Shown here: one piece after another, positions 2,988 to 35,226 of the stretch
How positions within the stretch are numbered: the first letter of the stretch is position 1
Layout of the letters: every line of letters starts with the position of its first letter
NCBI GenBank assembly: GCA_036376135.1
Contig: DASVAW010000113.1
Span: 1 to 35,226 of the forward strand
DNA from: Candidatus Polarisedimenticolaceae bacterium
GTDB lineage: Bacteria; Acidobacteriota; Polarisedimenticolia; Polarisedimenticolales; DASRJG01
DNA length: 35,226 nucleotides
Direction of reading: 5' to 3'
Program-made: the position numbers and the translations under genes
The notes under the pieces: model-generated
What the model was told of the DNA's origin: nothing
Database searches by the model: none
The model's input: only the letters and a program-made list of their open reading frames with translations

Positions 2988-5900
2988 TCACGGGCACGGA
3001 TGGTCGTTGGGGCGGGGACCGAGCGTTCCCGACCCCAGCGACCCTTCGCCGCCGCTCGCGACGCCGGTCACGAGCGAAAACGCGACCTCGCCGGGCGTCG
3101 GCTCGCTCGCCTCGGTTTCGGACGTCGAGGTGAGGCCGCAGCGACGGTCCGCGAGCGCATTCGATCCGGGCTCCTGCGTGTAGACGCCGGTCGCTTTCAA
3201 CACGCCCAGGTCTCCGAGGTAGAGATTCCAGGACGTCGCGCCCTGTTCCGCCTGCCATTGGACGAGGTCCTTCGCCTCCCGCCACTCCCAGATGACGCCG
3301 TCGTCGAGGTCGCAGGCATCCCCCTCGTCGTCGCCGTCGCCGTCGGATTGGGGCGCGTTGGCATCGTAGGGGCAGTTGTCGCAGGCACCGGCGACGAGGT
3401 CGGCGTCCACGTCCACCCCCGCGGCCGTTTCGTCGACGCCGCCGCCGCAGTTGTCGTCGCGACCGTTGCAGACCTCGTTCGCGCCGGGATGGACGCTCGC
3501 GTCGCCGTCGTCGCAGTCGGCCGGGGCGGAGACGTACCCCGGCCGAATCGAGCCGTCACAACTCGGAAGGCTGTCGCCGGAATCCCCGAACCCGTCCCCG
3601 TCGGCGTCGCGGTAGAGGAGCCGTCCGTCGGGACACGCGCAGTACTCGCCACCGCTGTTCAGCGGATGGGCCCCGCCGGCGGTGCCTCCCCAGACGATCA
3701 TCGTCGAGCCGGTCCACACCACCGTGTGCTCGGAACGCCCGGGCGGAATGTTGGCCGCCGTCGAGATCGGCGCCCACGCGTCGGTCGCGGGGTCGTAGCG
3801 ACCGCCGCCGTTGGAGTAATACGGAGCGCCGTCGAGGCTCCCTCCCCAGACGATCATCTCCGAGCCCGTCCAGATCGCGGTGTGGTCGTGGCGCGCCGAA
3901 GGGGCGTTGGCGCCGCTCGAAACCGGTGTCCACGTGTCCGCGTCGGGGGAGTAGCAGCCGCCGTCCCCCAGTTCGACGTTGGGGTACGGGGTTCCCCTTC
4001 CGCCCCAGACGATCATCTCGGAACCGGTCCAGACCGCCGTGTGATATCGACGCGCCACGGGGACGTTGGCGCCCGTCGCCGTCGGCGTCCACGAATCGCC
4101 GGCCGGGTCGTAACGTCCGCCGGAGTCGAGGTAGTGACCGAAGTCGGCGTCCTCGCCGCCCCAGACGATCATCTCCGAGCCCGTCCATACCGCGGAATGG
4201 GCGTGGCGGGGCGCCGGCACGCCCGCCGCCGTGGACGTCGGAATCCATGCGTCGGTCGACGGGTTGTACCGGGCGCCGGAGTTCGACGGGACGTAGGCCG
4301 AGTCCCGCCCGCCCCAGACGACCATTTCGGAGCCTGTCCACACGGCGGAGTGCGCGCGACGCGCCGTCGGTGCGGCGTCGATCGGCACGGGGCGCCAGGC
4401 GTCGGTCATCGGGTCGTAGCGGGCACCCGTGGCAAGCACCTCCGCGACCGGCCAATCGGCGTACCCGCCCCACACGATCATCTCGGTTCCGCTCCACACG
4501 GCCGCGTGATCGGTGCGTAAGCTCGGCGCGTTCGCCCCCGAGGACGTGGGCACCCAGTTGGCGGTGGCAGGGTCGAAGCGACCGCCGTTGCCCAGGACGG
4601 AACTCCCCTGCCCTCCCCAGACGATCATCTCGGAGCCGGTCCAGACGGCCGACTGCCCGTAACGCTCCTGAGGCACCGAAGCGGCGGTCGACGTCGGGAT
4701 CCACGAGTCCGTGGAGGGAGCGTAGCGGCCGCCCGTATTCGTGTGCCCGCTGCCGCCCCAGACGATCAGCTCCCGACCTGTCCAGACGGCGGTGTGGGAG
4801 CGACGCGCGGTGGGCGTTCCCTGCCCCGTCGAAGTCGGCGTCCAGGCGTCGAGGACGGGGTCGTAGCCCCCCCCGGAGTTGGTCGCGGTGTTGCTCGCGA
4901 CCTCTCCGCCCCAGACGAGCATCTCCGAGCCGGTCCACGCCGCGACGTGGGCATAGCGGGCGGACGGGAGATTCGCTCCCGTCGACGTTGCGGTCCAGGT
5001 ATCGGAGGCCGGATCGTAGCGCGCTCCGCTGTTCAGGTTGGGCCCGTTGAATCCCCCCCACACGATCATCCGGGAACCCGTCCAGACGGCGGTGTGGAAC
5101 GCTCGAGCGGCGGGTGCTCCCGCGGCCGAGGAGGTCGCGATCCACGTGTCGGTCGTCGGGTCGTAGCGGCCGCCCGATCGCTCGTAAACGCTCGCCGTGC
5201 TCCTGCCGCCCCAGACGATCATCTCGGAGCCGGTCCACACCGCCGTATGGAGGGTGCGTTGGATCGGTGCTCCCACCGTCGACGTCGCGGCCCACGTGTT
5301 GGTCGAGGGGTCGTAGCGACCGCCGCTGTTCGCGTACGACGTGGCACCGATCTCCCCGCCCCAAACGATCATCTCGGAGCCGGTCCAGACGGCGCTGTGA
5401 CGGCTCCGGCCCGCAGGAAGGCCGGCCCCCATCGCCGTCGGGGTCCAGGTCTCGGTCGTCGGGTTGTAGCGACCGCCGGTATTGAGGTAGTAGGGCGAGT
5501 TTCTGCCGTACCCACCCCAGACGATCATCTCCGTCCCCGTCCACACGGCCGTCGCGTCCTCCCGCCCCTGAGGGGTGAGGACCCCGATCGGCGTCGGAAC
5601 CCACGTGTCGGTCGACGGGTTGTAGCGGCCACCGGCCTGCACGTGGGAGGTCCCGGTGGAGCCTCCCCAGACGATCAGTTCCGAGCCGGTCCACACCGCC
5701 ACATGCGAGATCCGTCCCGTCGGGACGTTGCCGCCGGTGCCGATCCACGTGTCGGGCTCGCAGGCGCCGCTGGCGAGCGCGGGGAGGGTGTACGCGAACG
5801 AGGGGACTTCGAGTTCGAACGAGGCGTCGGGTGAACGACCGATCGCGTCGCCTGCGCTCCACTCCCGGAACAATCGATCCACCAGCGTCGGCCGCGCGAG

Positions 5901-6278
5901 TGTTTCCGCGATGCGGGCCGGGTCGTTGCCCAACGCTTCGAACAGAGCCCGCAGCGTCTCCGGCGCGCGCGAGTCCCTCGCCATCCGATCCATCTCCGCC
6001 TGGAGCTGCTCGCCCGTGATCGGCCGCTGCCAGCGCGTCGCAAGGGCGGACGACTTTCGAAGGTAGTCCTCCACGCGCGCCCGTATCGCGGCATCGGAGA
6101 GGACCGCGGCAAGCGGCGGCTTGGGTAGGGGGTTCTCGGCCGGCCAGATCCGCCGGCTCCAGTAGACCTGCTCGATGGCCCGCTGCGCGGCGACACGGTC
6201 CTCGACGGTGATTTCCGCCGCCGATGCGCCGAAAGACAGGGCGAAGCACCCGACGGCCGCCAGGAACGGGGGGGTCAT
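2988..6278 (-). CDS. Secreted 14-repeat kelch protein with MopE-type and thrombospondin-3-like calcium motifs
   Basis: About 1096 residues. I start at the ATG at 6278, which opens a clean signal peptide (MTPPFLAAV...GASA). A TTG at 6314 is in frame but coincides with the -35 box. After the signal peptide comes a helical domain of about 130 residues (IWPAENP and PITGEQLQAEMDRMA blocks) that I recall from other acidobacterial exoproteins. Fourteen near-identical kelch-like repeats follow, each with AVWTGSEMIVWGG, then GGRYDP and TDTWxPTST, and should form one or two beta-propellers. Next are a MopE-type metal-binding motif (DCDDGD...PGANEVCNGRDDNC) and a thrombospondin-3-type Asp-rich repeat (DSDGDGDDEGDACD-like). 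The C-terminus is a fibronectin-III-like module ending in NDHPCP, related to the end of the protein at 31125-35226. Probably surface-bound or released; its ligand is unknown. Confidence 0.85.
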   Translation of the reverse strand: MTPPFLAAVGCFALSFGASAAEITVEDRVAAQRAIEQVYWSRRIWPAENPLPKPPLAAVLSDAAIRARVEDYLRKSSALATRWQRPITGEQLQAEMDRMARDSRAPETLRALFEALGNDPARIAETLARPTLVDRLFREWSAGDAIGRSPDASFELEVPSFAYTLPALASGACEPDTWIGTGGNVPTGRISHVAVWTGSELIVWGGSTGTSHVQAGGRYNPSTDTWVPTPIGVLTPQGREDATAVWTGTEMIVWGGYGRNSPYYLNTGGRYNPTTETWTPTAMGAGLPAGRSRHSAVWTGSEMIVWGGEIGATSYANSGGRYDPSTNTWAATSTVGAPIQRTLHTAVWTGSEMIVWGGRSTASVYERSGGRYDPTTDTWIATSSAAGAPAARAFHTAVWTGSRMIVWGGFNGPNLNSGARYDPASDTWTATSTGANLPSARYAHVAAWTGSEMLVWGGEVASNTATNSGGGYDPVLDAWTPTSTGQGTPTARRSHTAVWTGRELIVWGGSGHTNTGGRYAPSTDSWIPTSTAASVPQERYGQSAVWTGSEMIVWGGQGSSVLGNGGRFDPATANWVPTSSGANAPSLRTDHAAVWSGTEMIVWGGYADWPVAEVLATGARYDPMTDAWRPVPIDAAPTARRAHSAVWTGSEMVVWGGRDSAYVPSNSGARYNPSTDAWIPTSTAAGVPAPRHAHSAVWTGSEMIVWGGEDADFGHYLDSGGRYDPAGDSWTPTATGANVPVARRYHTAVWTGSEMIVWGGRGTPYPNVELGDGGCYSPDADTWTPVSSGANAPSARHDHTAIWTGSEMIVWGGSLDGAPYYSNGGGRYDPATDAWAPISTAANIPPGRSEHTVVWTGSTMIVWGGTAGGAHPLNSGGEYCACPDGRLLYRDADGDGFGDSGDSLPSCDGSIRPGYVSAPADCDDGDASVHPGANEVCNGRDDNCGGGVDETAAGVDVDADLVAGACDNCPYDANAPQSDGDGDDEGDACDLDDGVIWEWREAKDLVQWQAEQGATSWNLYLGDLGVLKATGVYTQEPGSNALADRRCGLTSTSETEASEPTPGEVAFSLVTGVASGGEGSLGSGTLGPRPNDHPCP
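3650..5715 (-). repeat. Tandem coding repeat: 14 kelch units
   Basis: The segment encodes 14 consecutive units averaging about 49 residues (about 147 bases). All carry [AV]VWTG, IVWGG and (in most) a GGRYDP core. Identity is high at DNA level too: the strings encoding VWTGSEMIVWGG recur almost unchanged. This suggests recent expansion or gene conversion, and the segment is prone to copy-number change and misassembly. Confidence 0.9.
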
Positions 6279-6398: not shown

Positions 6399-8975
6399 TC
6401 AGCGCAACCCGCCGACGACGTACAGATCGGTCAGCAGCTTGGAGGTGGAGAGCGCCCAGTACTTCCCGTTCGGCGTGATCGTCGGGGCGACGATGCGAAC
6501 CCCCGCGGCGTCGTTTGGGGCGATGGTGGTCCAGGGGACCCGGCGCCCGGTCGCGAGATCGAGCTTTTCGATCTCGATCGGAATGCCGGGCGCGCTCACG
6601 AACAGCCCCGTTCCGTCTTCGGTGAAGGCGAGGGGCTGGTCCCCCGCGCGCCAGCCGGGGATCGCGATCGGCTCGCCGCCGTCGACGGGCCAGCGCATCG
6701 GTGTTCCGCCGGCGTCCTGCAGCACGACGAGCCGGCCGTCCGGCGACACCGGCGGACAGCCGAAGTACTCCGACTGGATCCCGGGACGTCCGAACGGGTG
6801 CGAGGCGCCGGTGGTCACGTCGATCACGAAGGCGCGGGTCGGCTCGTCGCCGCGGCGCGCGACGGTCACGATCCGCCGTCCGTCGCGAAGCCAGGCCGGG
6901 AGCCCCTCGTAGCGCAGCCCCTCGGGATTCGGGATCGCGCGCGTCGCTCCCATGCCCACCGGAGAGACCGACAACACCCGCGCGTCGGCCGAGGACACGA
7001 GGGCCTCCGTTCCGTCCGGGGAGAGCTGAAGCACGTCCCCCGTGCTGAGCCGGAGCGCCCCCGCGCGATCGGCGCGAACGGCGAACCCTTCGTATTCCTT
7101 GGTCGCGTGGCTCGCGACCGCGGCGACGCGACCGTCGTCGGAGATGGAGCGGGACAACGAGGCCTCGGCGGGGACGATCAGCGCCCGAGGCTGGCTCCAT
7201 CCGGACAGCAGCGCGTCCACGCCGCGCTCGTTCCGGTGGCTTCCGATCAGGACGCGTCCGTCGGCGGCGATGTCGAAGAGCTCGATCGGCGTCAGGCTCG
7301 TCCATACGACGCGTTTCCCGCCGTCGAGGGTGCAGGCGCCCAACACCAGCCCCTCGTCCCCGGGAACGCCGGTGTACCAGACCTCCCGACCGGCGGGAGT
7401 CCACGCCACCCCACGGATCGAGGCGAAGTCGGAAGCCAGCGTCGTCTTCTTCCCGGCGCGGTCCACGACGGCGAGGTCCCCGCGGTCGTCGGCCCAGACG
7501 GGATGGTCCGTGAACGCGACCCGCGCTCCGTCGGGGGAGATGCGGATGTCCGCGATGTACCCGGCGGTCTTGTACAGCACGTTGCCGACCGGGTACTCCA
7601 GCTGCTCCAGCCCTTCGACGCGCCGCACGATCGCGAGCTCCGAGCCGTCCGGAGACCAGTCCGCCGCGCGCACGCGCTCGACGAGCTCGCGCGGCGTCCC
7701 GCCGAGGAGCGCCGTTCGGGCGAGCGTCCCCTCCCCCATCCACCCGCTGTAGGCGAGGCCGAGCGCGATCGCGAGCTCCCCCGACTTCGAGACCGAGAGG
7801 AGCTCGGCGGGAGCGACCGCGATGGGGGTCGACTCCGGGGAGTCGGTCCGCGCGAGGTAGAGCGCGACCGGCGGGCCTCCCCACGCGGCGCCGTAGACGA
7901 TCGTCCGGCCGTCGGAGGTGAACCGCGCGGAACGCATCATCCCGCGTGCGAAGGTGACGCGCTGGAAGGTCAGCTCCGCCTCGGTCGCGGGGGCCGCGCC
8001 CCGTCGCGCGGCGAGGAACCCGCCGACCGCGGCGAGCGCGATCGCGACGACGGCGATCGCCGCGAGGAGCGGCAGGCGCGAGCGACGCCCGGAGGGGACG
8101 GGCCGCACCGGGCCGGTGCGGGCGTCCTCCGGATTGTCGTCGAGCAGCAGGCTCGCGTCCCCCGCGTCGCGCAGCCGCCGGCGCGCGTCCTTCTCGAGGC
8201 AGCGGCGCAGGAGCCTGCGCACGGGGACCGGACACGACGCGGGGAGTTTCTCCCAGTCGGGCTCGCCGGTCACGATCGCCGCGAGGACGTCGGTGACGGT
8301 CGGGCCGTCGAAGGCCTTCCGGCCCGAGAGCATCTCGAACAGGACGCAGCCGAAGGCCCAGAGGTCGGTGCGGCGGTCGACGGCCTGGCCTCGCGCCTGC
8401 TCGGGGCTCATGTACGACGCGGTGCCGAGGATCATCCCCGCTTCGCTTCCCGCCGACGTGACGGTCGCCGTCTGCCCGGAGACCGGCCCGGAGCTCTCGA
8501 GCGCCTTGGCCAGGCCGAAGTCGAGGACCTTGATCTGGCCCTCGGGGGTGCGCTTGACGTTGGCGGGCTTGAGGTCGCGATGCACGACGCCGCGGTCGTG
8601 CGCCGCTTCGAGGGCGGCGGCGATCTGCCGCGCCGCGTCGAGCGCCTCGCGCGCGGGGAGCGGCCCCCGTTTCAGGATCGCCGCGAGGTCCTCCCCCTCG
8701 ACCATCTCCATCGCCAGGAAGCGGACGCCGTCCACGTCGTGGAAGCCGTAGATCGCCGCGATGTTCGGGTGGTTGAGCGAGGCCAGGACCTTGGCCTCGC
8801 GCTCGAACCGCGCGACGCGGTCCGGGTCCCGCTCGAAGGCGGGCGGCAGCACCTTGATCGCGACCTCGCGGTCGAGCGTGGTGTCCGTCGCCCGCCACAC
8901 CTCACCCATCCCTCCCTCGCCGATCGGCTCGACGAGGCGGAACTGGAGGAGCGGGAGTCCGGGTGCGAGCGGCAC
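6399..8975 (-). CDS. Membrane Ser/Thr protein kinase with C-terminal TolB/WD40-like beta-propeller
   Basis: 858 residues from the GTG at 8975. The open frame continues upstream to 10682, but that part overlaps the aldo/keto reductase and AraC genes in another frame. The kinase domain (residues about 12-270) has the glycine loop GEGGMGEV (19-26), Lys41, the catalytic loop HRDLKPAN (132-139) and DFG (152-154), so it should be active. Next come a basic stretch, one membrane helix (LLAAIAVVAIALAAVGGFLAA) and an outer region of TolB/WD40-type blades with FTSDGRTI, WSPDGSEL and ISPDGARV. This is the usual acidobacterial receptor-kinase design: a cytoplasmic Hanks-type kinase and an extracytoplasmic propeller that may sense a ligand. 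It starts 29 bases after the aldo/keto reductase stop and may be co-transcribed, but it also has its own TAGACT box. Substrates are unknown. Confidence 0.88.
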   Translation of the reverse strand: MPLAPGLPLLQFRLVEPIGEGGMGEVWRATDTTLDREVAIKVLPPAFERDPDRVARFEREAKVLASLNHPNIAAIYGFHDVDGVRFLAMEMVEGEDLAAILKRGPLPAREALDAARQIAAALEAAHDRGVVHRDLKPANVKRTPEGQIKVLDFGLAKALESSGPVSGQTATVTSAGSEAGMILGTASYMSPEQARGQAVDRRTDLWAFGCVLFEMLSGRKAFDGPTVTDVLAAIVTGEPDWEKLPASCPVPVRRLLRRCLEKDARRRLRDAGDASLLLDDNPEDARTGPVRPVPSGRRSRLPLLAAIAVVAIALAAVGGFLAARRGAAPATEAELTFQRVTFARGMMRSARFTSDGRTIVYGAAWGGPPVALYLARTDSPESTPIAVAPAELLSVSKSGELAIALGLAYSGWMGEGTLARTALLGGTPRELVERVRAADWSPDGSELAIVRRVEGLEQLEYPVGNVLYKTAGYIADIRISPDGARVAFTDHPVWADDRGDLAVVDRAGKKTTLASDFASIRGVAWTPAGREVWYTGVPGDEGLVLGACTLDGGKRVVWTSLTPIELFDIAADGRVLIGSHRNERGVDALLSGWSQPRALIVPAEASLSRSISDDGRVAAVASHATKEYEGFAVRADRAGALRLSTGDVLQLSPDGTEALVSSADARVLSVSPVGMGATRAIPNPEGLRYEGLPAWLRDGRRIVTVARRGDEPTRAFVIDVTTGASHPFGRPGIQSEYFGCPPVSPDGRLVVLQDAGGTPMRWPVDGGEPIAIPGWRAGDQPLAFTEDGTGLFVSAPGIPIEIEKLDLATGRRVPWTTIAPNDAAGVRIVAPTITPNGKYWALSTSKLLTDLYVVGGLR

Positions 8976-8983
8976 GACGGCGG

Positions 8984-8989
8984 AGTCTA
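8984..8989 (-). promoter_or_regulatory. -10-like box for a leaderless kinase transcript
   Basis: TAGACT lies on the minus strand in the short gap after the aldo/keto reductase stop. The bases CCGCCGTC separate it from the kinase GTG at 8975. No Shine-Dalgarno sequence precedes this GTG and no -35 is visible. The same eight bases separate the -10-like box and start codon of the ECF sigma gene at 23868. Confidence 0.4.
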
Positions 8990-8990
8990 A

Positions 8991-10009
<1,019 letters not shown>

Positions 10010-11032
10010 TTACGGGGTCGCGCCCCGTGAGCGCGCCGGGCGGGCATGCCTTGCACGCCAGGCGCCCGGCGAGCTGCCTTCCCAATGCTGGAACGCCCGG
10101 AAGAACGAATGGGCGTCCTCGTAACCGAGCAGATAGGCGGTTTCGTTCAGCTCCAGCTTCGACTGCGAGAGATAGTGGCGGGCCAGCTCGCGGCGCGACT
10201 CCCGGACCAGCTGCTGGAACGTCTTGTTCTCCTCGCCCAGCCTGCGCTGCAGCGTCCGGGCGCTCAGGCGCAGTTCCCGCGCGACGTCGCCGATCCCCGG
10301 CCGCTTCCCGGCGAGCAGTCGTTTCAGGACTCCCTTGACCTGGTCGCCGATCGCCTCCCCGGCGAGGTCTTGCGACAGCTCCCGCTCGAGCTGGGGCGCG
10401 ATCGACGCGAACAGGTCCGCGTTGTGGGTGAGAAAGGGCCGGTCGAGGTCCGCCTTGGCGAACACGATCGCGTTCCGGCGGGCCCCGAACTCCACCGGGC
10501 AGCCGAAATGCTGCTCGTACATCCGGCGGTTTCGGACGGCCCCCTGCAGCTCGATCCGCTTCGGGCGGACGAGCCCGCCGGTTCCCCGCCGGGCGATCCC
10601 CACGACCCACGCGAAGCAGACGTCCACCAGGATCGGCGGCTCCGACTCCTCGGCGAGCAGGAACCGGAACCGCACACGGCACTCTTCTCCCCGCGTGACC
10701 GCGTCGATCGCCTCCGGGCAGGTCAGCTGCTTGTAACGCGCCAGGCGCTCCAGCGCGTCCCGGAACGAGCGCGCCGACACGGCGGCGAGGGCGATCGGGT
10801 CGTACCGCTCGACACGATCCTCGGTCCCGAGCCGGAGCCCGATCGCCGGATCGCGGCTGGACTCCGCGATCCCCCGGTAGAGCGCGAAGAACTCCTCCGT
10901 GCTCACCAGCGCCTTCTCCTGGCGGAGGGTCTGCGGCGGAAGTCCGGCGCGGCGCGCCAGCTCCGCGGGGGCCACCCCGATCTCCTCGAGCTTGCGCGCG
11001 AGATTGCCGGAGACGCGGAACCGCCGGATCAC
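10010..11032 (-). CDS. AraC-family transcriptional regulator with arabinose-binding-like N-terminal domain
   Basis: 340 residues from the GTG at 11032, seven bases after the alcohol dehydrogenase stop, so translation is likely coupled. The N-terminal two thirds match the OruR/ArgR-type sensor half (Pfam Arabinose_bd style): LARRAGLPPQTL, DPAIGLRLG and the FGCPVEFGA segment before the linker. The C-terminal 100 or so residues are an AraC double helix-turn-helix (DVARELRLSARTLQRRL and ETAYLLGYEDAHSFFRAFQHW). It sits between two carbonyl/alcohol oxidoreductases and most likely controls them in response to a small hydrophobic or amino-acid-like effector. That role is inferred from position. No clear binding site was found upstream of 12116. 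Confidence 0.9.
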   Translation of the reverse strand: MIRRFRVSGNLARKLEEIGVAPAELARRAGLPPQTLRQEKALVSTEEFFALYRGIAESSRDPAIGLRLGTEDRVERYDPIALAAVSARSFRDALERLARYKQLTCPEAIDAVTRGEECRVRFRFLLAEESEPPILVDVCFAWVVGIARRGTGGLVRPKRIELQGAVRNRRMYEQHFGCPVEFGARRNAIVFAKADLDRPFLTHNADLFASIAPQLERELSQDLAGEAIGDQVKGVLKRLLAGKRPGIGDVARELRLSARTLQRRLGEENKTFQQLVRESRRELARHYLSQSKLELNETAYLLGYEDAHSFFRAFQHWEGSSPGAWRARHARPARSRGATP

Positions 11033-12646: not shown

Positions 12647-14026
12647 CTACTCCGAGCCTTCCTCGAACGTCAGCGCGTCGCCCTTGAATCGGATGCGGAA
12701 CTCGATCCCCTCGGCGCGAGGGAGCCTGACGGTCCAGGGGTCCGAACGGTAGATCCGGCCGTCCTCTCCGATCACCCTCGCCCGGAGCGTGTGCTGGCCG
12801 GCCGGGGCCTCCAGGGGATCCCACGTCGTCGTCTGCAGGATGGTGACTCTCGATTTCGAGAATTCCTCGTCGAGGATCGGCGCACCGTCCAGGGAGACGA
12901 CGAGCCGGCCCCGGCGCACGCGGTGGACGAGGCTGATCGTGACCTTCGCCTTGGGGACGGACGGCCGGGTCGAGGGGACGACCGGAACGGGGTTCGGAAC
13001 GGGTGCCGGAACGGGGGTCGCGAGCGGAACCGCCGGACGGGACGACGGCCCCTCGACGACCGGCGCGCCCCGTTCTCCGTTCGAATCGTTCAGGAAGGCC
13101 AGGGCGACGAGCGCGGTCGCGCCGAGGACTCCCCAGGGAGCGAGTTGCCGTCCGCTCCAGGCGCGGACCCGCGCGGGGGAGCGGGCACGGCCTGCGCCCG
13201 TGAGACATGCCGCCAACGCCTCGTGGAATTCCCTTCCACTCGCGAAACGGTCGGCGGGCTCCTTGGCCAGTGCCCGTTCCGCCACGGCGTCGAGCGCCTG
13301 GGGCAACCTCGGGTTGACCTTGCTGATCGGCAGGGGCTGCGCATAGGCGATGGCGTGCGCCAGCGTCACCGCATCCGTCCCTTCGAACGGCTTCCTGCCC
13401 GCGAGAATCTCGTAACTCAGCACGCCCAGGGAGAACACGTCGGCTCTCGCATCGAGAGTCCTGCCGTTCACCTGCTCGGGCGACATGTAGGCGGGCGTGC
13501 CGACGTCTCTCATGTCCTGGGTCAGCGTCGAGGTGGCGACGTGCGTGATGCCGAAGTCGACGAGCTTGACGGTGCCTTTGTCGGTCAGAAGGACGTTCGA
13601 GGGCTTGACGTCCCGGTGAATGAGGCCCTGGGCGTGCGCGGCATCCAGACCCGAGGCGATCTGACCGATGATCTCGACCGCTCGCTCGACCTCGAGACCG
13701 TCGCCGCCCAGCAGGCTCTCGAGACTCGGGCCGGAGACGTACTCCATGACGATGTACATCTCGCCGGTGTCGTAGTCCTCCCCGACGTCGAAGATCCGGA
13801 TGATGTTCGGATGATCGATGCTGCCCGCGCTCTCGGCCTCACGTCGGAATCGCTCGCGGGCGACCGCGACCTGCTGCGGGGTCATCGCCCGGGTCGCATG
13901 GAGGACTTTGACCGCGACGGTCCGCTGGATGAGGGGGTCTTCCGCGCGGTAGACGATGCCCATCGCTCCCCGCCCGACGGGGTCGTGGAGTACGTAGCGG
14001 CCGATCCTCCGTTCCGTCGTCGGCAC
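12647..14026 (-). CDS. Membrane Ser/Thr protein kinase with small C-terminal extracytoplasmic domain
   Basis: 459 residues from the GTG at 14026; GGAGGG lies about 12 bases upstream. The open frame runs further back but overlaps the divergent GGDEF gene. The kinase domain has GRGAMGIV (18-25), Lys40, HRDVKPSN (137-144) and DFG (157-159), plus the MSPEQ activation-loop end. A single membrane helix (WGVLGATALVALAFL) near residues 310-325 leads to a Pro-rich spacer (PVPAPVPNPVPVVPS) and a compact beta-rich tail of about 110 residues with no match I recognise. It is followed 16 bases later by the PilZ-like gene and faces a diguanylate cyclase. A link between phosphorylation and cyclic-di-GMP signalling is therefore plausible; the target is unknown. 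Confidence 0.87.
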   Translation of the reverse strand: MPTTERRIGRYVLHDPVGRGAMGIVYRAEDPLIQRTVAVKVLHATRAMTPQQVAVARERFRREAESAGSIDHPNIIRIFDVGEDYDTGEMYIVMEYVSGPSLESLLGGDGLEVERAVEIIGQIASGLDAAHAQGLIHRDVKPSNVLLTDKGTVKLVDFGITHVATSTLTQDMRDVGTPAYMSPEQVNGRTLDARADVFSLGVLSYEILAGRKPFEGTDAVTLAHAIAYAQPLPISKVNPRLPQALDAVAERALAKEPADRFASGREFHEALAACLTGAGRARSPARVRAWSGRQLAPWGVLGATALVALAFLNDSNGERGAPVVEGPSSRPAVPLATPVPAPVPNPVPVVPSTRPSVPKAKVTISLVHRVRRGRLVVSLDGAPILDEEFSKSRVTILQTTTWDPLEAPAGQHTLRARVIGEDGRIYRSDPWTVRLPRAEGIEFRIRFKGDALTFEEGSE

Positions 14027-14070
14027 TTTCGTTACGTCCCTCCGGATTCCGCTGCTGAAATATGGGCGCA

Positions 14071-14090
14071 CGGGTAAAAAAACCCACCCG
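14071..14090. promoter_or_regulatory. A-tract and inverted repeat between divergent kinase and GGDEF genes
   Basis: CGGGT (14071-14075) and ACCCG (14086-14090) form an inverted repeat around a run of seven A residues. An alternative pairing is GGGT/ACCC directly around the run. In this GC-rich window an A7 tract is rare and would bend DNA. It lies between the starts of two divergent signalling genes and could be an operator; no regulator is identified. Confidence 0.3.
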
Positions 14091-14133
14091 CACGCCGGCG
14101 GTGCGACACCCGAACCACCCCGCAACCCCCGGT

Positions 14134-14162
14134 TTGACGAAGGCGGCCCTCGGATCCAGATT
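14134..14162 (+). promoter_or_regulatory. Candidate promoter of the GGDEF gene
   Basis: TTGACG (14134-14139, five of six) is followed after 17 bases by CAGATT (14157-14162, three of six). The ATG at 14173 follows ten bases later, giving a leader of only about four bases. This supports the ATG at 14173 over the in-frame ATG at 14062. Confidence 0.4.
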
Positions 14163-14172
14163 CCGTCCCGCC

Positions 14173-14967
14173 ATGAACGAAGCGAGGTCGTCGCTGCTTC
14201 CCGTGCCGGTCGGGGCGCTGGTCGGCGTGGTGCCCGCCCTGCTCGCGGCCGGTTTCGCGCCGGGCGCGTGGACGTTCCTGGCGCTCGCGGGCACCACGAT
14301 CGCGACGACGACGTTCCTGTCCGGCGCTCGGCGTCGCGCCCGCCAGCTGGCCGCGACGGAGGGCCGTGCCCTGCACCTTCAATCGGCCACATCGTCCGCC
14401 GAGGCCCGAATGGCCATGCTGGAAGCGAAGCTGCGCGAGACGGCGAGCCATGACGAGACGACGGGCGTTCTCAACCGGCGCACGTTCCTGACCCGCCTGG
14501 ACGAGGCGATCCAGCGCGACGCGCGCCTGCAGAAGCCGATGGCCCTCCTCCTGATCGACATCGACGGCTTCCGGAAGATCAACGCCGAAGGCGGGCGGCT
14601 GATCGGGGACCGGGTGCTGCGCGCGGTGGGACGGTCGATCCAGGCCTCGACTCGCGGTACCGACTTCGTCGGCCGGGTCGGTGGCGACGAGTTCGCGGTC
14701 CTGCTCGCGGAGTGTCTCGATCCGGGCCCCGCGGTCGATCGGCTGTTCGTGGCGCTCCACGGCGAGACGACCGTCGAAGAGGCACCCCTGCCGATCCGGG
14801 TCAGCGTCGGCACGGTGACGATCGAGGAGCCGCACTTCGGCGTGGACCCGGTCGAGTTGTTCCGCCTCGCGGAGGAAGCGCTCTCGTCCGTGCGCGTTGC
14901 GGGCGGCGGCCTGTGCGGCAGGCGCGACTACCGGCCCGCGAGTCGTCGACCGGTCGTGACGACCTAG
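14173..14967 (+). CDS. Membrane-anchored GGDEF diguanylate cyclase
   Basis: 264 residues. GGDEF enzymes condense two GTP into cyclic di-GMP. The N-terminus has two closely spaced hydrophobic segments (VGALVGVVPALLAAGF and WTFLALAGTTIATTTFL), followed by an Arg-rich, probably coiled linker of about 45 residues. The catalytic domain has LLIDIDGFRKIN and an intact GGDEF (170-174). Arg161-x-x-Asp164 lies exactly five residues before GGDEF, the position of the allosteric I-site, so product inhibition is expected. No separate sensory domain is visible. Its input may come through the membrane segment or from the divergent kinase gene next door, whose operon carries a PilZ-like effector. An ATG at 14062 is in frame but would add an unfolded Pro/Arg-rich segment. 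Confidence 0.88.
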   Translation: MNEARSSLLPVPVGALVGVVPALLAAGFAPGAWTFLALAGTTIATTTFLSGARRRARQLAATEGRALHLQSATSSAEARMAMLEAKLRETASHDETTGVLNRRTFLTRLDEAIQRDARLQKPMALLLIDIDGFRKINAEGGRLIGDRVLRAVGRSIQASTRGTDFVGRVGGDEFAVLLAECLDPGPAVDRLFVALHGETTVEEAPLPIRVSVGTVTIEEPHFGVDPVELFRLAEEALSSVRVAGGGLCGRRDYRPASRRPVVTT

Positions 14968-25054: not shown

Positions 25055-27658
25055 TCAGCGCCCTGCCGCCAGCGCGTCGAACTCCGGGTCGCCCCGCAAC
25101 GCGTCGAAGACCGGCGAGAGGCGAAGCAACGCCGCCGAGACCTGGTCGGAAGGCTGCTCGAGCAGCTCGCGCAGGTGCCCGATCGCGGCGGCGCGTTCGC
25201 CCACGACCGCCTCGACGACGGCGAGGTCGAGCTTCCGGTACTGGAGCAGCCACGCGTCGTTCGACGCGGGGCGGAGGGTGAGCGCCCGCCGCGCCGCCTC
25301 GAGCGCCGGCTGCTTCTCCCCGAGCTCCGCGAAAACCATCCCGAGCATGGAGTGGTAGTTCGAGTCGGGGACGTGGTTTTTCCCGTAGGCGACCAGCTCC
25401 CGCTTCGCGCGCTCGAACTCGGCGCGCGCGCCGGCTTCGTCCCCCTGGAACTTACGGATCCAGCCGCGGCCCGCCGCACGGCATTCGAACTGGAACTGCG
25501 CGTTGCCGACCTCGGGAAGCAGCTCGGCGATCTTCGACGCCAGGTCCCAGTCGCGGCAGCCGACCGCCGTCCAGAACCCGGCCTGGCGCGACTCGGTGTT
25601 GGCGGCGGTCTCGACGATGGAGCGCACCGACGCGCACGCGGCGTCGGCGTCGCCCGCGAGCATCGCCGTGCGGCCCAGGCCCGCCGACTGCGCCGTGGAG
25701 TTCGGGTCGAGCGCGATCGCCCGCTCGTAGCTGCGCCGGCCCTCGTCGTACCGGCGGAGGACCGTGAGCGTCTCGCCCCTGGTGTAGTGCGTGAGCGCGT
25801 TGCGGGGATCGAGCGCCGCCGATCGCTCGATGAGCTCGGCGGCTTCCTGGAACCGCCCCTGGCGGCGGCGCACGAAGGCCATGCCGTTGATCGCCTCGAC
25901 CGAGCTCGGAAGCCCCGCCTTCGCCTTCGTGAAGGCCTGGTAGGCGGGCTCGTAGTCCTTGCGGCCCCAGTAGTGGTAGTAGCCGAGCGCCAGCTGCGCC
26001 CACGGCGAAGCCGGGTCGAGCTCGAGCGCGCGGTCGACGGCGCGTTTCGAGCGCGCGACGCGCTCGTCCGAGCGGTCCCAGGCGAAGTGCACGAACCCCG
26101 CGTGCACCTGCGCGAGCTCGGCGAAGGCGCGCAGGAACTTCGGGTCCCGCGAGCAGGCCTCCTCGAGCTCCACGGCGGCGCGTTCCCAGGCCTCGCGCGC
26201 GAAGACGGTGCTCGCGACGATCGCATGGGCGCGCAGGTACGCGTGGTACGCCTCGACGTCGGAGGTGGGGGCGGCCTCGAGCGCCTCGCGCTCCTTCCCG
26301 CCGATCGCGACCCCGAGCCTGTCCACGACCTCCCCCGCGATCTCCGACTGGATCGTGAAGATCTGGTCCATCGCGCGGTCGTAACTCGACGACCAGACCT
26401 GGCGGTCCTCGCGCGCGCGGACGAGTTGGGGGGTGACGCGGACCGCGCTTTTCCCGGAGGCGTCGCGCGCCCACCGCACCGTCCCGTCGAGGACGTAGTC
26501 CACGCCGAGATCCTCCGCGATCTGCGGCATCGTCCTGCCGGTCCGGTCGTAGCGCAGCGCGCTCGTCCGCGAGAGGACGCCGAGGTCCTTCAACGCCGAA
26601 AGGCGGCTCGTGATCTCGTCGGCGATCCCCGCCGCGAAGTACTCGTCCGCGGCGGGGCCGAGGTTCTCGAAGGGGAAGACGACGATCATCGGCCGCTCGG
26701 CGATCGGCGCCGGCGACGGGCGGTCCCGGCCGAGGTACCACCCCGTTCCGAGGACCGCGAGGACGAGCGCTCCCAGGCCGATCGCGAGCGGCACTCCGCT
26801 CCGCCGCCGCGGGGTCGCCCCCGCCCGCAGCGCCTGGAGGTCGTCCCGAAGCTCGCGCGCGGTCGGATAACGCTCCGCCGGATTCTTCGCGAGGCAGCGC
26901 TGCACGATCCGGTCGACGGCTCTCGCGACCGTCGGCTTGCGTTCGTGGACCGGCTTCGCCGGATCGCGGAGGATCGCGGTCAGCGTCGAGATCGAGTTCG
27001 TTCCCTGGAACGGACGCGCGCCGGTGATCATCTCGTAGAGCACGATCCCGAGCGAGAAGACGTCCGATCGCGCGTCGACGGGCCTGCCTTCGGCCTGCTC
27101 CGGGGACATGTAGCTGACCGTGCCGAGGATCCTGCCGTGTTCGGTGGCGTGCGAGAGCGACGTCACCGTCCGGTCGCCGACGGGCTCCGCCTCGACGAGC
27201 TTCGCGAGCCCGAAGTCGAGGACCTTCACCCGCCCCTCGTCGTCGAGCATCACGTTGTCGGGTTTCAGGTCGCGGTGCGTGATCCCCCGGGCGTGCGCCG
27301 CGGCGACGGCGTCGCACAGCGGGATCGCGATCTCGAGGAACCGGTCGAGCGGCAACCCGTCCGGCGGGAGGCGCTTCGTCAGCGTCTGCCCCTCGACCAG
27401 CTCCATCGCCAGGAAGCGCAGGCCGTCCCGCTGGTCGACGTCGTGGATGGTGACGATGTTCGGATGGCGCAGCGCCGCAACGGCCCGCGCCTCGCGTTCG
27501 AAGCGCGCGGCGCGCTCGGGGTCGGCATCGGCCGCGGGCAGGACCTTGAGCGCGACGTCCCGGTCCAGGCGCGTGTCGCGCGCGCGGTACACCTCGCCCA
27601 TGCCGCCCTGGCCGAGCTTCTCCAGGATCTCGTAGTGGCCGAGGCGGCTTCCGATCAT
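25055..27658 (-). CDS. Membrane Ser/Thr protein kinase with TolB-N-like domain and TPR tail
   Basis: 867 residues, ATG at 27658. The kinase domain has GQGGMGEV (16-23), Lys38, HRDLKPDN (128-135), DFG (148-150) and MSPEQAEGR. One membrane helix (VPLAIGLGALVLAVLGTGWYLG) lies at about 290-312. After it comes a domain of the type found in TPR-bearing adenylate cyclases and FlgO/TolB-N proteins: VVFPFENLGPAADEYFAAGI, then LGVDYVLDGTVRW and a WSSSYDR block. The last 370 or so residues are TPR-like helical repeats (SPWAQLALGYYHYWG, DPRNALTHYTRGETL, DPNSTAQSAGLGRTAM). This kinase/TPR architecture is common in acidobacteria; the TPRs probably bind partner proteins. It stands alone as a transcription unit, convergent with the sigma/anti-sigma pair. 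Confidence 0.9.
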   Translation of the reverse strand: MIGSRLGHYEILEKLGQGGMGEVYRARDTRLDRDVALKVLPAADADPERAARFEREARAVAALRHPNIVTIHDVDQRDGLRFLAMELVEGQTLTKRLPPDGLPLDRFLEIAIPLCDAVAAAHARGITHRDLKPDNVMLDDEGRVKVLDFGLAKLVEAEPVGDRTVTSLSHATEHGRILGTVSYMSPEQAEGRPVDARSDVFSLGIVLYEMITGARPFQGTNSISTLTAILRDPAKPVHERKPTVARAVDRIVQRCLAKNPAERYPTARELRDDLQALRAGATPRRRSGVPLAIGLGALVLAVLGTGWYLGRDRPSPAPIAERPMIVVFPFENLGPAADEYFAAGIADEITSRLSALKDLGVLSRTSALRYDRTGRTMPQIAEDLGVDYVLDGTVRWARDASGKSAVRVTPQLVRAREDRQVWSSSYDRAMDQIFTIQSEIAGEVVDRLGVAIGGKEREALEAAPTSDVEAYHAYLRAHAIVASTVFAREAWERAAVELEEACSRDPKFLRAFAELAQVHAGFVHFAWDRSDERVARSKRAVDRALELDPASPWAQLALGYYHYWGRKDYEPAYQAFTKAKAGLPSSVEAINGMAFVRRRQGRFQEAAELIERSAALDPRNALTHYTRGETLTVLRRYDEGRRSYERAIALDPNSTAQSAGLGRTAMLAGDADAACASVRSIVETAANTESRQAGFWTAVGCRDWDLASKIAELLPEVGNAQFQFECRAAGRGWIRKFQGDEAGARAEFERAKRELVAYGKNHVPDSNYHSMLGMVFAELGEKQPALEAARRALTLRPASNDAWLLQYRKLDLAVVEAVVGERAAAIGHLRELLEQPSDQVSAALLRLSPVFDALRGDPEFDALAAGR

Positions 27659-30272: not shown

Positions 30273-30366
30273 GTCCGCCTCCACCTGACGTGCTTCGACA
30301 TCCCGAGATTGGTACTTCCGGTGGCCTGTCACGCGACACCTGGAACTACGGTACGCGCGGCGTCGG

Positions 30367-30380
30367 CCCATCTCGATGGG
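30367..30380 (+). promoter_or_regulatory. Small hairpin in the leader region of the barrel gene
   Basis: CCCAT (30367-30371), loop CTCG, ATGGG (30376-30380). It lies six bases before a much stronger hairpin and may be part of the same structured element. Confidence 0.3.
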
Positions 30381-30386
30381 GCGTAA

Positions 30387-30418
30387 CCCTACCGAGCCCG
30401 GGGGCGGCCTCGGTAGGG
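30387..30418 (+). promoter_or_regulatory. Strong hairpin upstream of the outer-membrane barrel gene
   Basis: CCCTACCGAG (30387-30396) and CTCGGTAGGG (30409-30418) form a perfect 10-bp stem with a 12-base GC loop, ending 87 bases before the ATG at 30506. It may be an operator, a structured 5-prime leader or part of a small RNA. No riboswitch family is recognised. The rest of 30273-30505 shows no gene. Confidence 0.5.
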
Positions 30419-30505
30419 ACTCACCCCATGGAAGCGCTTTCGGCCGGCGACATACGCTCCGGGTTCAGTGTGTTTCGCGGAAGTTCTCTTTTCGCAGGAG
30501 GTTTC

Positions 30506-31099: not shown

Positions 31100-31126
31100 G
31101 AGCCCCGAGCGCACCCCTCGAGGCTC
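31100..31126. terminator. Bidirectional hairpin between convergent barrel and exoprotein genes
   Basis: GAGCCCCGAG (31100-31109) and CTCGAGGCTC (31117-31126) pair at nine of ten positions around a 7-base loop. It begins three bases after the barrel gene's stop and overlaps the last bases of the opposing gene. No U-run is present on either strand. Confidence 0.5.
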
Positions 31127-34100
31127 ACGGACACGCGCCGCTCTCATTGGCGATCCGCGCCCCCCCCGCCGGCCCGTCGTCGTTCCCGTTGGTCCCCACC
31201 ACCAGATACCAGTAGAAGCGGACCGCCGCGGACGCGGGGTCCTCGCCCAGGACCGGCCCCGTCGTGAGGTTCGCGGTGGTCAGGCGCGTGCACGAATCGA
31301 GATCGGTGTCGAGCAGTTCGGGGAGCGACGCCGGATCGCCGCGGATCACGCGGTAGGAGGTCGCTCCCACGGCAGGTGACCAGGTCAACTCCGTCTTCGA
31401 CGTCCACGTCACGCCGAGCACCTCCGCGATCGGACTCGGCCCGACCGCCGCGCACGCCGAGAACTCCGAGGTGTTCCCCGAGGGGGAGGTGGCGGTCGCC
31501 GTCACCACCCCCGAGGCCGGGACGGGGACGAGGACGTCGAACGCGCCGACGCAGCTCCCGTCGGTGGTCACGTTGGTCGAACCGAGCCAGGTGGTCCCTT
31601 CGCCGAAGCCGTATGCATCGCACGCCGGACTCGCGTAGAAGTCCACCGTGAACGTCGTTCCCGCGTTGCTGTTCAAGGTCCCGGTGACGCGAGTCGAGGA
31701 GCCCGACCGGTACGTCGACGTCAGAGCGGGGAAGTTCTGGACGCCGTTCGGGCCGGTGTCGGGGTCGCAGGGATCGTTGGGGAAGGCGGCGCCGGTCCAG
31801 TGGAGGTCGATCCCCAGCCCGGTGTTGGAGAACATTCGGTTCGCGCGGATGGTCACGCCGGTCGCGCCCCCCTGGACCTGAATCCCGGCCCAGTTGGTGC
31901 CGCCGTCGGGCCGCGAGTTGAACGCGATCACGTTCCCTTCGCCGGCTCCGGTTCCGCCGATCGTGCAGGGCTGCGGGGAGGTCGCGTAGATCCCCGACCA
32001 GGTGTTCCGCAGGTTCAGCGTCCCCGAGGGGTCGGTCCCGATCGAGTTCCCCTGAATCGTGAACGATCCCTGATTCATGCTGATCCCGTTCAGCGCGTTG
32101 CCGCCGATGACGTTCCCCAGAATCTGCGCCGTCCCGCTGATCGACCCGAGGATCCCCTCGCCGTTGTTTCCCAGGGGCGCGGTCCCGGCGGCGTTCGTGC
32201 CGATCCGGTTCCCCTGGATCACCACCCCCGACGTCGTGAATCCGAAGGAGTAATGCCAGACCCCGTGCCCCGCGGTGGAGGCCGACAGGACGTTCCCCGC
32301 GATCATGGTGTCCGTGACGTACTCCATGTGGATCCCCATCGCGTTCCCCAGGGCCGCGGTGCCGGTGGCGTCGGTCCCCACGTAGTTCCCCTGGATCACG
32401 GTCCCGGCGCAGGAGTTCCCCACCGTGCCCCCCGCCATGTAGATTCCCGTGCCGTTGTTCCCGGAGATCACGTTGCGTGCGGCCGACGTGGCTCCACCGA
32501 TCAGGGTGTTCTGCGCTCGGATGATGCTGATTCCATTGAGGCCGTTCCCCAGGTCCGCGGTCCCCGTCGCGTTCGTGCCGATGAGGTTCCCGTGGATCAC
32601 GGCTCCCGAGGCCGGGCTTTCGGCGATCTCGATCCCGTGGTGACTGCTGGCGGAGATCACGTTGCCGGCGCCTTGAGCGGTGCCCCCGATCACGTTGTTT
32701 CCGCCGCCGCGCAGGGTGATCCCGTGGGGGATGTTCCCCAGTGGGAACATCCCCGTGACGTCGGTTCCGATGTAGTTCCCCTGGATCACGGCCCCGCTGG
32801 AGCCGTTGGCCGACCAGACGCCACCGTAGTCGTTGTTCCCCGAGATCACGTTGCGGGCCGCGGGCGCGGTGCCGCCGATCTGCACCCCGTGCGCGTTCTC
32901 GAGGTAGACGCCCGCCCCGCGGCAGCCGCGGTCCAGCGTCCCCGTGGCGTCGGTCCCGAGGAAGTTCCCCTGGATCACCGCGCCCGTGGCCGAGGCCCCC
33001 TGCACGAGGATGCAATGCGCGGCGTGGTAGTTGATCGTACCGTCGTCGCCGACGACGTTGCGGGCGCCGGCGGCGGTCCCGCCGACGAGGGTGTTCGGGG
33101 CGTCCACGATCCGGATCCCGCCGACGGTGTTGTAGAGCGGCGTCGTTCCCGCGGCGTCGAGGCCGATGATGTTCGAGCGGATCGAGGTACCCGACGCCGT
33201 GGCGCCGCTGACGTCGATCGCTTCGGCGTAACGGTTCACGAACCCGTTGAGGACGGTTCCGTTCCCGGAGATCAGATTCCCCTCCCCGGGCTGGCCGACG
33301 ATCGTGTTCGGGGCCCCGACGATCCGCACCCCGTCGTCGAGGTTGGGGATCCGGACGGTCCCCGTGGCGTCGGTGCCGATCTTGTTCTGCAGCAACGCGT
33401 TCCCGTTGGCGGACGCGCCGTTGATCGTGACCCCGACCTGGTTTCCGGAGATCACGTTCCGGGAGACGACGTTCCGGTAGAGCGGGTCGGGGTAACCGCC
33501 GTCGATCAGGATCCCGCTCCTGCCGTTGCCGGCCGCGGCCGTGCCCGCGGCGTCGGTCCCCACGTAGCTGTTCTGGATCAGGTTGGCGTAGGCCCCGGCC
33601 CCGCGCAGCACGATCCCGTTGCCGGCGAAGTTCCGGACGACGAGTCCGTTGATGAAGCCGTTGTCCCCCTGCACGACGAGGCCGTCGCAGGGAACGCCGA
33701 ACTGGGGATCGGGGCAGTTCGACCCCACGAGCTCGAGCAGCGGCGGCCCCACGTATTCGGGACCTCCGAGCTCCCAGCCGTCGATGGCCACCGGCTTCAG
33801 GATCGTGGGGAGCTGCGAGAGGACCTGGATCGTGCGCACGCCGCTGCCGGGAATCTCGAGGGGGATCGTCGCCCCGGTCGGCCAGTCGTTGGCGTCCAGG
33901 ATCGCCTGCCGGAGCGACCCCCGGCCGCCGTCGTTGGTGTTGGCCACCCGCAGCGGATCGATCGTGAACCCCTCCGAGACGTCGTAGAAGATGTTCCCGA
34001 CCGCCTCGATCTTGATCCGCGCGATCGCCGTGGTGGCGAACGGGAGCGTCACCGTCTCCGCGCCGTCGTTGGGGGTGCTCGACGCCAGGAGGTACGGCCA

Positions 34101-35226
34101 CGTGGATCCCCCGTCGGTCGAGAGCAGGATCCGCACGTTCGAGCAGCTCACGGGCGGATTCTGCGTGTTGGCCGAGTTCCAGGTGACCGTCTTGCGCGTT
34201 CCTTGGGTCCAGTACGTCGTGCTCGTGGGCTGCGTCACGGCGAAGGGGCCGCTCCCGCCGTCCACCGTGATCGTCGCGCCGGTGAAGGTCACCCCGTCCA
34301 CGTTGTCGCGCAGGACCACCGTCCAGTCCATCACGCGCGAGGTCGTCGGAAGGCTCTCCCCGGTGAGGCACGTCGCGGTGCCGCAGGTGTAGGTCGCCGG
34401 GGGATTGTTGGAGTTGAACAGGACGTCGCTGAAGCGCGGGAGGTACCGCAGGTTGGAACCGCTCGGCGCATAGGCTCGGAAGATCGGGCGGGACCCGTCG
34501 TCCCCCTCGGGGGGGGAGGCCGTCCCGGTGTCCGACTCCTCGAACGAATAGGTGACCGGGTCGTCGTTGGGATCGTAGGCCTGCAACGTCAGCACAAACG
34601 GTGTCCGGGCCGGGATGGTGTGGTCGCCGGGGTGAACCTGCACGATCGGGCCGTAGTTCCCGCTGAACGCCTGGTCCGCGCAGACCGTGGCGTTGCCGGC
34701 CAGCACGAACCCCAGCGTCTCGCGGATGTTGTCGCCGTGGAACGCGAGGTCCCGGGAGTTCTGGAGGTTCGCGGAGTCGCAGGTCCCCGCGTAGGACATC
34801 AGGGTCGAGCCGCTCGCCGGCTCGTAGGCCCACGACGCGTCCCGCTGGTTGGCGTTGCCGCACGATCCGTTGGTCCCGTCGTTGAACGTGTGGCGGCCGC
34901 CGAACATGTGCCCGATCTCGTGAGCCGCCAGCGCGATCGACGTTCCGCCCGTGGTCCCGCGCCCCTTGTTGAGCGGGTCGCACACCGCGTAGAGGTCCGC
35001 GGCCCCCGCGGCGCTGCCGTCGGGGTTGGCAGCGTCGAAGATGACCCCGACGTCGTAGTTGTCCGTTCCGATGGTCCCGTCGAGAAGGCACTGGTTCCCG
35101 TCCTGAAGGCAGTCGGGAGACAGACAGTCCACCGCTCCCTCGCAGGTCCGATCCCCGGACGGGAGATAAGACGACGGCGCGGTCTGGATGACCTGCTCGG
35201 ACTCCTCGATGAGCTCGAGGTGAACC
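31125..35226 (-). CDS. Secreted reprolysin-like metallopeptidase with beta-helix repeats (5-prime end beyond window)
   Basis: About 1366 residues are visible. The frame stays open to the right edge, so the GTG at 35132 is not the true start and the signal peptide lies outside. A metzincin domain comes first: HEIGHMFGGRH (34890-34922) is the zinc motif and TLMSYAG the Met-turn, as in M12B-type enzymes. Ig/cadherin-like segments follow (VHPGDHTIPARTPFVLTLQA, VTWNSANTQNPPVSCSNV). Then comes a right-handed parallel beta-helix with nine [IL]GTDATGT-like units alternating with RNVISGN and NTLIGG blocks. A fibronectin-III-like C-terminal module (LTWSPAVGATSYRVIRGD) ends in NESGACP and resembles the end of the kelch protein at 2988. 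Likely an exported protease that binds polysaccharide or matrix through its helix; targets are unknown. Confidence 0.88.
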   Translation of the reverse strand, partial: VHLELIEESEQVIQTAPSSYLPSGDRTCEGAVDCLSPDCLQDGNQCLLDGTIGTDNYDVGVIFDAANPDGSAAGAADLYAVCDPLNKGRGTTGGTSIALAAHEIGHMFGGRHTFNDGTNGSCGNANQRDASWAYEPASGSTLMSYAGTCDSANLQNSRDLAFHGDNIRETLGFVLAGNATVCADQAFSGNYGPIVQVHPGDHTIPARTPFVLTLQAYDPNDDPVTYSFEESDTGTASPPEGDDGSRPIFRAYAPSGSNLRYLPRFSDVLFNSNNPPATYTCGTATCLTGESLPTTSRVMDWTVVLRDNVDGVTFTGATITVDGGSGPFAVTQPTSTTYWTQGTRKTVTWNSANTQNPPVSCSNVRILLSTDGGSTWPYLLASSTPNDGAETVTLPFATTAIARIKIEAVGNIFYDVSEGFTIDPLRVANTNDGGRGSLRQAILDANDWPTGATIPLEIPGSGVRTIQVLSQLPTILKPVAIDGWELGGPEYVGPPLLELVGSNCPDPQFGVPCDGLVVQGDNGFINGLVVRNFAGNGIVLRGAGAYANLIQNSYVGTDAAGTAAAGNGRSGILIDGGYPDPLYRNVVSRNVISGNQVGVTINGASANGNALLQNKIGTDATGTVRIPNLDDGVRIVGAPNTIVGQPGEGNLISGNGTVLNGFVNRYAEAIDVSGATASGTSIRSNIIGLDAAGTTPLYNTVGGIRIVDAPNTLVGGTAAGARNVVGDDGTINYHAAHCILVQGASATGAVIQGNFLGTDATGTLDRGCRGAGVYLENAHGVQIGGTAPAARNVISGNNDYGGVWSANGSSGAVIQGNYIGTDVTGMFPLGNIPHGITLRGGGNNVIGGTAQGAGNVISASSHHGIEIAESPASGAVIHGNLIGTNATGTADLGNGLNGISIIRAQNTLIGGATSAARNVISGNNGTGIYMAGGTVGNSCAGTVIQGNYVGTDATGTAALGNAMGIHMEYVTDTMIAGNVLSASTAGHGVWHYSFGFTTSGVVIQGNRIGTNAAGTAPLGNNGEGILGSISGTAQILGNVIGGNALNGISMNQGSFTIQGNSIGTDPSGTLNLRNTWSGIYATSPQPCTIGGTGAGEGNVIAFNSRPDGGTNWAGIQVQGGATGVTIRANRMFSNTGLGIDLHWTGAAFPNDPCDPDTGPNGVQNFPALTSTYRSGSSTRVTGTLNSNAGTTFTVDFYASPACDAYGFGEGTTWLGSTNVTTDGSCVGAFDVLVPVPASGVVTATATSPSGNTSEFSACAAVGPSPIAEVLGVTWTSKTELTWSPAVGATSYRVIRGDPASLPELLDTDLDSCTRLTTANLTTGPVLGEDPASAAVRFYWYLVVGTNGNDDGPAGGARIANESGACP
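31950..33660 (-). repeat. Coding repeats of the beta-helix region
   Basis: Nine units share the core [YI]xG[TL][DN]xxGT and mostly end LGN, spaced irregularly at about 45-75 residues. NVISGN and IQGN blocks lie between. DNA similarity is clear, with the strings encoding VIQGN and GTDATGT recurring, but lower than in the kelch gene, so the expansion is probably older. Confidence 0.75.

Follow-up and report, generated by a model that had tools for sequence, protein, structure and literature searches.

A predicted Fn3-type domain recurs at the C-terminus of exported proteins in one class of Acidobacteriota

Results

Two exoproteins of the window end in related domains

We analyzed a window of 35,226 nucleotides (the whole stretch of DNA under study), which is contig 113 of a 4.38 Mb genome of 179 contigs, named G000. 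Two of its genes encode proteins with different bodies and similar ends, and their relevant features are as follows.

2988..6278, minus strand: gene call for a kelch-repeat exoprotein, tail carrier (Pfam PF24681, PF13415, PF11617)
2988-2990, minus strand: stop codon of the kelch gene
2991..3299, minus strand: kelch tail domain, C-terminal, predicted Fn3-type, ending NDHPCP (jackknifed family HMM, i-E 3.1e-14)
2994..2996, minus strand: terminal Cys codon of the kelch tail (alignment column 191)
3138..3140, minus strand: mid-domain Cys codon of the kelch tail, proposed disulfide partner (alignment column 94)
31125..35225, minus strand: reprolysin-type metzincin with beta-helix repeats, tail carrier (Pfam PF13583, E 4e-17; repeats from the translation)
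31125-31127, minus strand: stop codon of the metzincin/beta-helix gene
31128..31427, minus strand: metzincin/beta-helix tail domain, C-terminal, predicted Fn3-type, ending NESGACP (jackknifed family HMM, i-E 2.6e-11)
31131..31133, minus strand: terminal Cys codon of the metzincin tail (family alignment)
31290..31292, minus strand: mid-domain Cys codon of the metzincin tail (family alignment)

The kelch exoprotein starts with the signal peptide MTPPFLAAVGCFALSFGASAA and carries a MopE metal-binding motif ahead of its tail; the signal peptide of the metzincin is not visible because the 5' end of its gene is cut off at the contig end. Taken alone, the two tails would suggest kinship only weakly, being 23% identical, with just 30 residues aligned by BLASTP (E 0.003). 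As an independent check, a profile was built without the two window tails, from 39 other G000 copies, and this profile recovers the kelch tail (i-E 3.1e-14) as well as the metzincin tail (2.6e-11). The kinship that an earlier note had read from the letters of the window is thus real, and both tails lie where it had placed them. When searched against the 238 six-frame ORFs of the window, the 39-copy profile found no third tail.

The M23 peptidase encoded at 164-2965 is exported, with a lipoprotein-like signal and without the tail, which is therefore not found on every exported protein. At 30290-31096 lies an outer-membrane beta-barrel gene (PF13505, weak), convergent with the metzincin gene. 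Type B C-terminal domain (CTD) genes of the type IX secretion system (T9SS) often adjoin a barrel shuttle gene; here, the gene orientation disfavors an operon of the barrel and the metzincin. Three serine/threonine kinase genes are also present in the 35 kb, at 6399-10682, 12647-14392, and 25055-27658, of which one has PD40 and another TPR repeats.

Predicted fold and cysteine pair of the tail domain

Neither window tail is covered by any Pfam or NCBIfam model, and 41 members of the family, compared with both libraries at E up to 1, gave no fn3 (PF00041), T9SS tail, or other convincing match. The family consensus reads roughly P.EV..L......TLSW....GA..YDV.RGDL..L...G.....CL..D...TS..D...P..G.GF.YLVR..N.CG.GTYG..S.G..R.....CP. 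Two motifs proposed in the earlier note can be placed on it: the Cys followed by Leu agrees with the consensus CLxxD, but the window tails themselves read C-G-L and C-T-R-L, and the FS/FYW-LV.G strand is a real strand that corresponds to the FYYLVR strand of the family.

The Cys at column 94 and that at column 191 are each present in 130 of 135 copies. Both occur together in 129 copies, as expected from the paired Cys that had been noticed in the window, both are absent from four, and two copies are mixed. Such joint retention or loss (Fisher P 2e-6, a value that is indicative only, the sequences being related to each other) argues for a disulfide bond between the mid-domain and the terminal Cys. 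Among the non-terminal copies of the alignment, 17 of 19 keep both residues, so the terminal Cys belongs to the domain and is not a free end signal.

Given an alignment of 41 copies, AlphaFold2 modeled the metzincin tail at a pLDDT of 81.6 and a pTM of 0.74, and the top solved structures matched by this model in Foldseek are fn3 domains, with a probability up to 1.0 and an E of 5e-3 at best. Among solved structures, the family profile best matches the Fn3 domains of C. thermocellum 3mpc (E 3e-5) and CtXyl5A (5g56, E 5e-4). These matches point to an Fn3-type fold, a seven-stranded beta-sandwich, in line with the Fn3-like domain that the earlier note had offered as an equal option; of the two window tails, the metzincin tail is the one modeled well, the kelch tail folded without an alignment giving an uninformative pLDDT of 37. 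The conserved positions are mainly those of the fold core, the helix, and the Cys pair, as any Fn3 family would show. The tail shares with Fn3 domains (PF00041; 3mpc, CtXyl5A) the fold, as predicted, and the W...Y.V.R...YY.V core. Unlike canonical Fn3, it has an additional RGDLxxL helix, two paired Cys that would close the C-terminus, and an end strand of the form GxYGxxSxGxxR; it is terminal rather than tandem, and PF00041 does not detect it. No description of the domain was found in open-access papers.

The domain is mostly, not always, C-terminal

The position of the domain was scored on the gene copies of G000 and most of those of G059, a complete single-contig genome of 6 Mb from the same order, 157 copies having a visible end. 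The stop codon lies within 25 residues of the domain in 137 of them; of these terminal copies, 127 have a Cys among the final four residues, and Cys-Pro forms the exact end of 93. In other genomes, a stop follows the copy directly or after no more than four residues in 28 of 29 cases. As a control in the same two genomes, the stop is at most 25 residues away from one of 22 canonical fn3 domains (PF00041) and from none of seven PPC domains; the terminal bias of the tail over ordinary fn3 has a Fisher P of 4e-15, with 10 of the 22 fn3 matches sitting in one protein. With the final part of the domain removed from the profile, 120 terminal and 20 non-terminal copies were obtained, which rules out the bias as a detection artefact of the Cys-Pro end.

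The remaining 20 of 157 copies (~13%) are internal or N-terminal, and most have intact motifs. They comprise copies that precede thrombospondin type 3 (TSP3) repeats, with or without a second, terminal copy; copies followed by a recurrent domain of ~140 residues, termed LEHRWTF; N-terminal copies directly behind the signal peptide; and a few weak Fn3-like matches. The LEHRWTF domain (LEHRWTF...DHLFLRV) was seen as a second C-terminal domain after the Fn3-type tail in both genomes, at L064, L208 (two genes), and L210. Two YD/RHS-like proteins of G059 (L185 and L192, at ~1.88 Mb and ~2.32 Mb of contig C1) carry the domain N-terminally, directly after the signal peptide.

The terminal Cys-Pro was also considered as a stand-alone signal and rejected: it ends only one of 131 domain-less signal-peptide proteins of G000, and internal copies of the domain keep their Cys-Pro. 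One exported protein of G000 (L152, 17610-19778) ends in GRTCP after a dockerin-like EF-hand repeat, and so has a Cys-Pro end without the Fn3-type domain. Pairs of tail-bearing genes that converge tail to tail were observed at G000:C163:10295-10883 and G000:C165:15842-16490, the two tail matches of the C163 pair overlapping by 17 bases.

Carriers mostly have signal-peptide-like N-termini and unrelated bodies

Among carriers with an intact 5' end, signal-peptide-like N-termini were recognized by a heuristic in 77 of 85 in G059 and in 45 of 55 in G000, several of the misses looking like signal peptides just below the threshold. The background rate is ~27% of the other called genes, obtained with a similar but not identical rule that makes the contrast a rough one. 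In 583 kb of G000, from contigs chosen by number, ten tail genes were found, and all eight with an intact start have a signal peptide. Thus the recurrence on diverse signal-peptide proteins that had been foreseen from two tails is borne out, with 137 of 157 copies terminal; of the stricter expectations, a signal peptide on every carrier holds for most carriers but not for each of them by the heuristic, and a strictly C-terminal location fails for ~13% of copies, whose Cys pair is mostly intact. Matches in mid-protein, which the earlier note took to count against its reading, therefore do occur, in part of the family.

The carrier bodies include TSP3, FG-GAP, S8 subtilase, MopE motifs, kelch, BNR, beta-helix, PD40, penicillin amidase, and glucose/sorbosone dehydrogenase (GSDH). 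They are unrelated to one another, with a mean column identity of 9% over 44 bodies, and the tail mostly occurs once per protein. One protein (L065) consists of a signal peptide and the tail domain only, with no cargo. A few carriers are lipoprotein-like and would already own an anchor.

The family is multiplied in one class

The two-tail profile matched many further copies across the rest of G000, in which we count 60-70 copies of the family, and ~70 at E below 1e-3 after a second profile round; G059 has ~137. The range was surveyed in 396 genomes of the phylum Acidobacteriota, which is the scope of the distribution given here. In the class of the window, the tail is present in all 41 sampled genomes with at least seven matches each, 12 candidates per genome having been scored. 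Outside this class, 73 of 355 Acidobacteriota genomes have any match, usually one or two that are weak; a few families (f14, f21, f39, and f46) are stronger. Within the phylum, the tail is thus restricted by lineage, occurring in every sampled genome of one class and sparsely elsewhere. A scan of genome contigs located five named loci in GTDB genomes, all Acidobacteria MAGs; four of these genomes, searched with the profile, have 12 to 78 copies each at E below 1e-6.

Discussion

Comparison with known C-terminal tails

The CTD of the T9SS is a C-terminal beta-sandwich of ~100 residues carried by unrelated Sec-exported proteins and of low mutual identity (PMC12618676, PMC4804311), the signal lying in the last 22 residues of the protein (PMC4804311). 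The tail resembles the type A CTD (TIGR04183) in its ~100 residues, C-terminal location, predicted beta-sandwich, unrelated Sec cargo, and many copies per genome. Unlike it, the acidobacterial tail ends in a paired Cys-Pro, has internal and N-terminal copies, and gives no profile match: none of the 41 members matches TIGR04183, TIGR04131, or the Pfam T9SS tail models at E up to 1. Recognized TIGR04183 tails occur in three of the 41 class genomes, whereas the 24 good-quality genomes among them have none, the control genomes being positive. SprA_N was not found in the 41 class genomes or in 297 genomes of the phylum, the control genomes being likewise negative. Membership in the type IX CTD, to which the earlier note had likened the tail, is rejected on the profile results and on the absence of TIGR04183 tails from the good class genomes; the CTD is still the best analogy for the deployment of the tail, not its family.

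Co-occurrence with a particular secretion machinery, another suggestion of the earlier note, did not emerge, as no machinery among those searched for co-varies with the tail. The type II secretion system was rejected as a partner: each of the 105 good genomes of the phylum has GspD-type secretins, whose presence is thus uninformative and does not explain the restriction of the tail.

PEP-CTERM, GlyGly-CTERM, and MYXO-CTERM are lineage-specific C-terminal tails found on many unrelated exported proteins; each consists of a short motif, a transmembrane segment, and a basic tail. The acidobacterial tail, in contrast, is a soluble domain with a predicted fold: the 41 members have no NCBIfam match of the PEP-CTERM type, and no hydrophobic stretch was found at the protein ends.

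Possible roles of the tail

We propose that one class of Acidobacteriota expanded an Fn3 domain of ~100 residues as a standard end module of its Sec-exported proteins. The mid-domain Cys would bond to the Cys at the very end and close the beta-sandwich; after export, the folded tail would bind a shared component of the envelope or surface, whereby unrelated enzymes, propellers, and beta-helix proteins would be displayed or retained at the surface. Neither a receptor nor a translocon or ligand was found, and the attachment of carriers to the surface or envelope is therefore a role that we infer, and the most likely one; for the proposal as a whole, a disulfide-closed Fn3-type family multiplied for Sec exports and most likely serving attachment, we see an even chance. 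A free C-terminus is seemingly not needed, since motif-complete copies are also found at the N-terminus or before TSP3 repeats, and a module for binding or display that can act at either end of a protein would fit best. Against attachment speak L065, which has no cargo, the lipoprotein-like carriers with their own presumed anchor, and a pattern of conservation that any Fn3 family would show. More specifically, and tentatively, the class may have a sorting and display system of its own, unrelated to T9SS, in which a putative outer-membrane or surface receptor recognizes the disulfide-closed Fn3 tail on dozens to more than 100 proteins per genome.

The main alternative to such a binding module, which we consider rather unlikely, is a passive cap that involves no partner, the Fn3 disulfide stapling the C-terminus and keeping exoproteins folded and safe from proteolysis. 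A cap would be consistent with a Cys pair that extends to the final residues, whose two members are retained or lost together and which internal copies also have, and with conserved positions that lie mostly in the core. It does not readily explain why the domain expanded in one class, why most carriers have a single copy, or why some copies sit N-terminally beside a signal peptide. It is unlikely, too, that the tail is an outer-membrane export signal, recognized in its folded state by a putative periplasm-facing translocon as the CTD is by T9SS. The shared architecture (Sec signal peptide, unrelated cargo, C-terminal beta-sandwich of ~100 residues, low identity) invites this reading; against it, internal and N-terminal copies keep their motifs, in contrast to a T9SS signal confined to the last 22 residues (PMC4804311), the T9SS CTD models do not match the tail, no machinery co-varies with it while secretins are universal in the phylum, and L065 has no cargo to export. 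A strict C-terminal signal of the T9SS kind is disfavored by the motif-complete internal and N-terminal copies, by L065, and by the lipoprotein-like carriers. Finally, the similarity in predicted fold and profile to Fn3 domains might mean that the tail is an ordinary accessory Fn3, merely common and with no meaning in its end position. We regard this as highly improbable and already disfavored: in the same genomes only one of 22 canonical fn3 domains is terminal, these domains number 9 and 13 per genome as against ~70 and ~137 tails, and PF00041 matches none of 41 members even at an E of 1.

Use of the tail as a marker

We found no account in the open-access literature of how these acidobacteria place their extracellular proteins. 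The tail profile marks a candidate extracellular proteome for a class that is mainly known through draft genomes, labels hundreds of proteins now without a C-terminal annotation, and gives the hunt for a receptor or translocon a concrete starting point. Should the tail act as an address, beta-sandwich tails would have been put to this use a second time, independently of T9SS. One protein that the profile did not detect (L160, 11138-13096), with the end ...VYLVRAAG...VSCP, is probably a divergent carrier.
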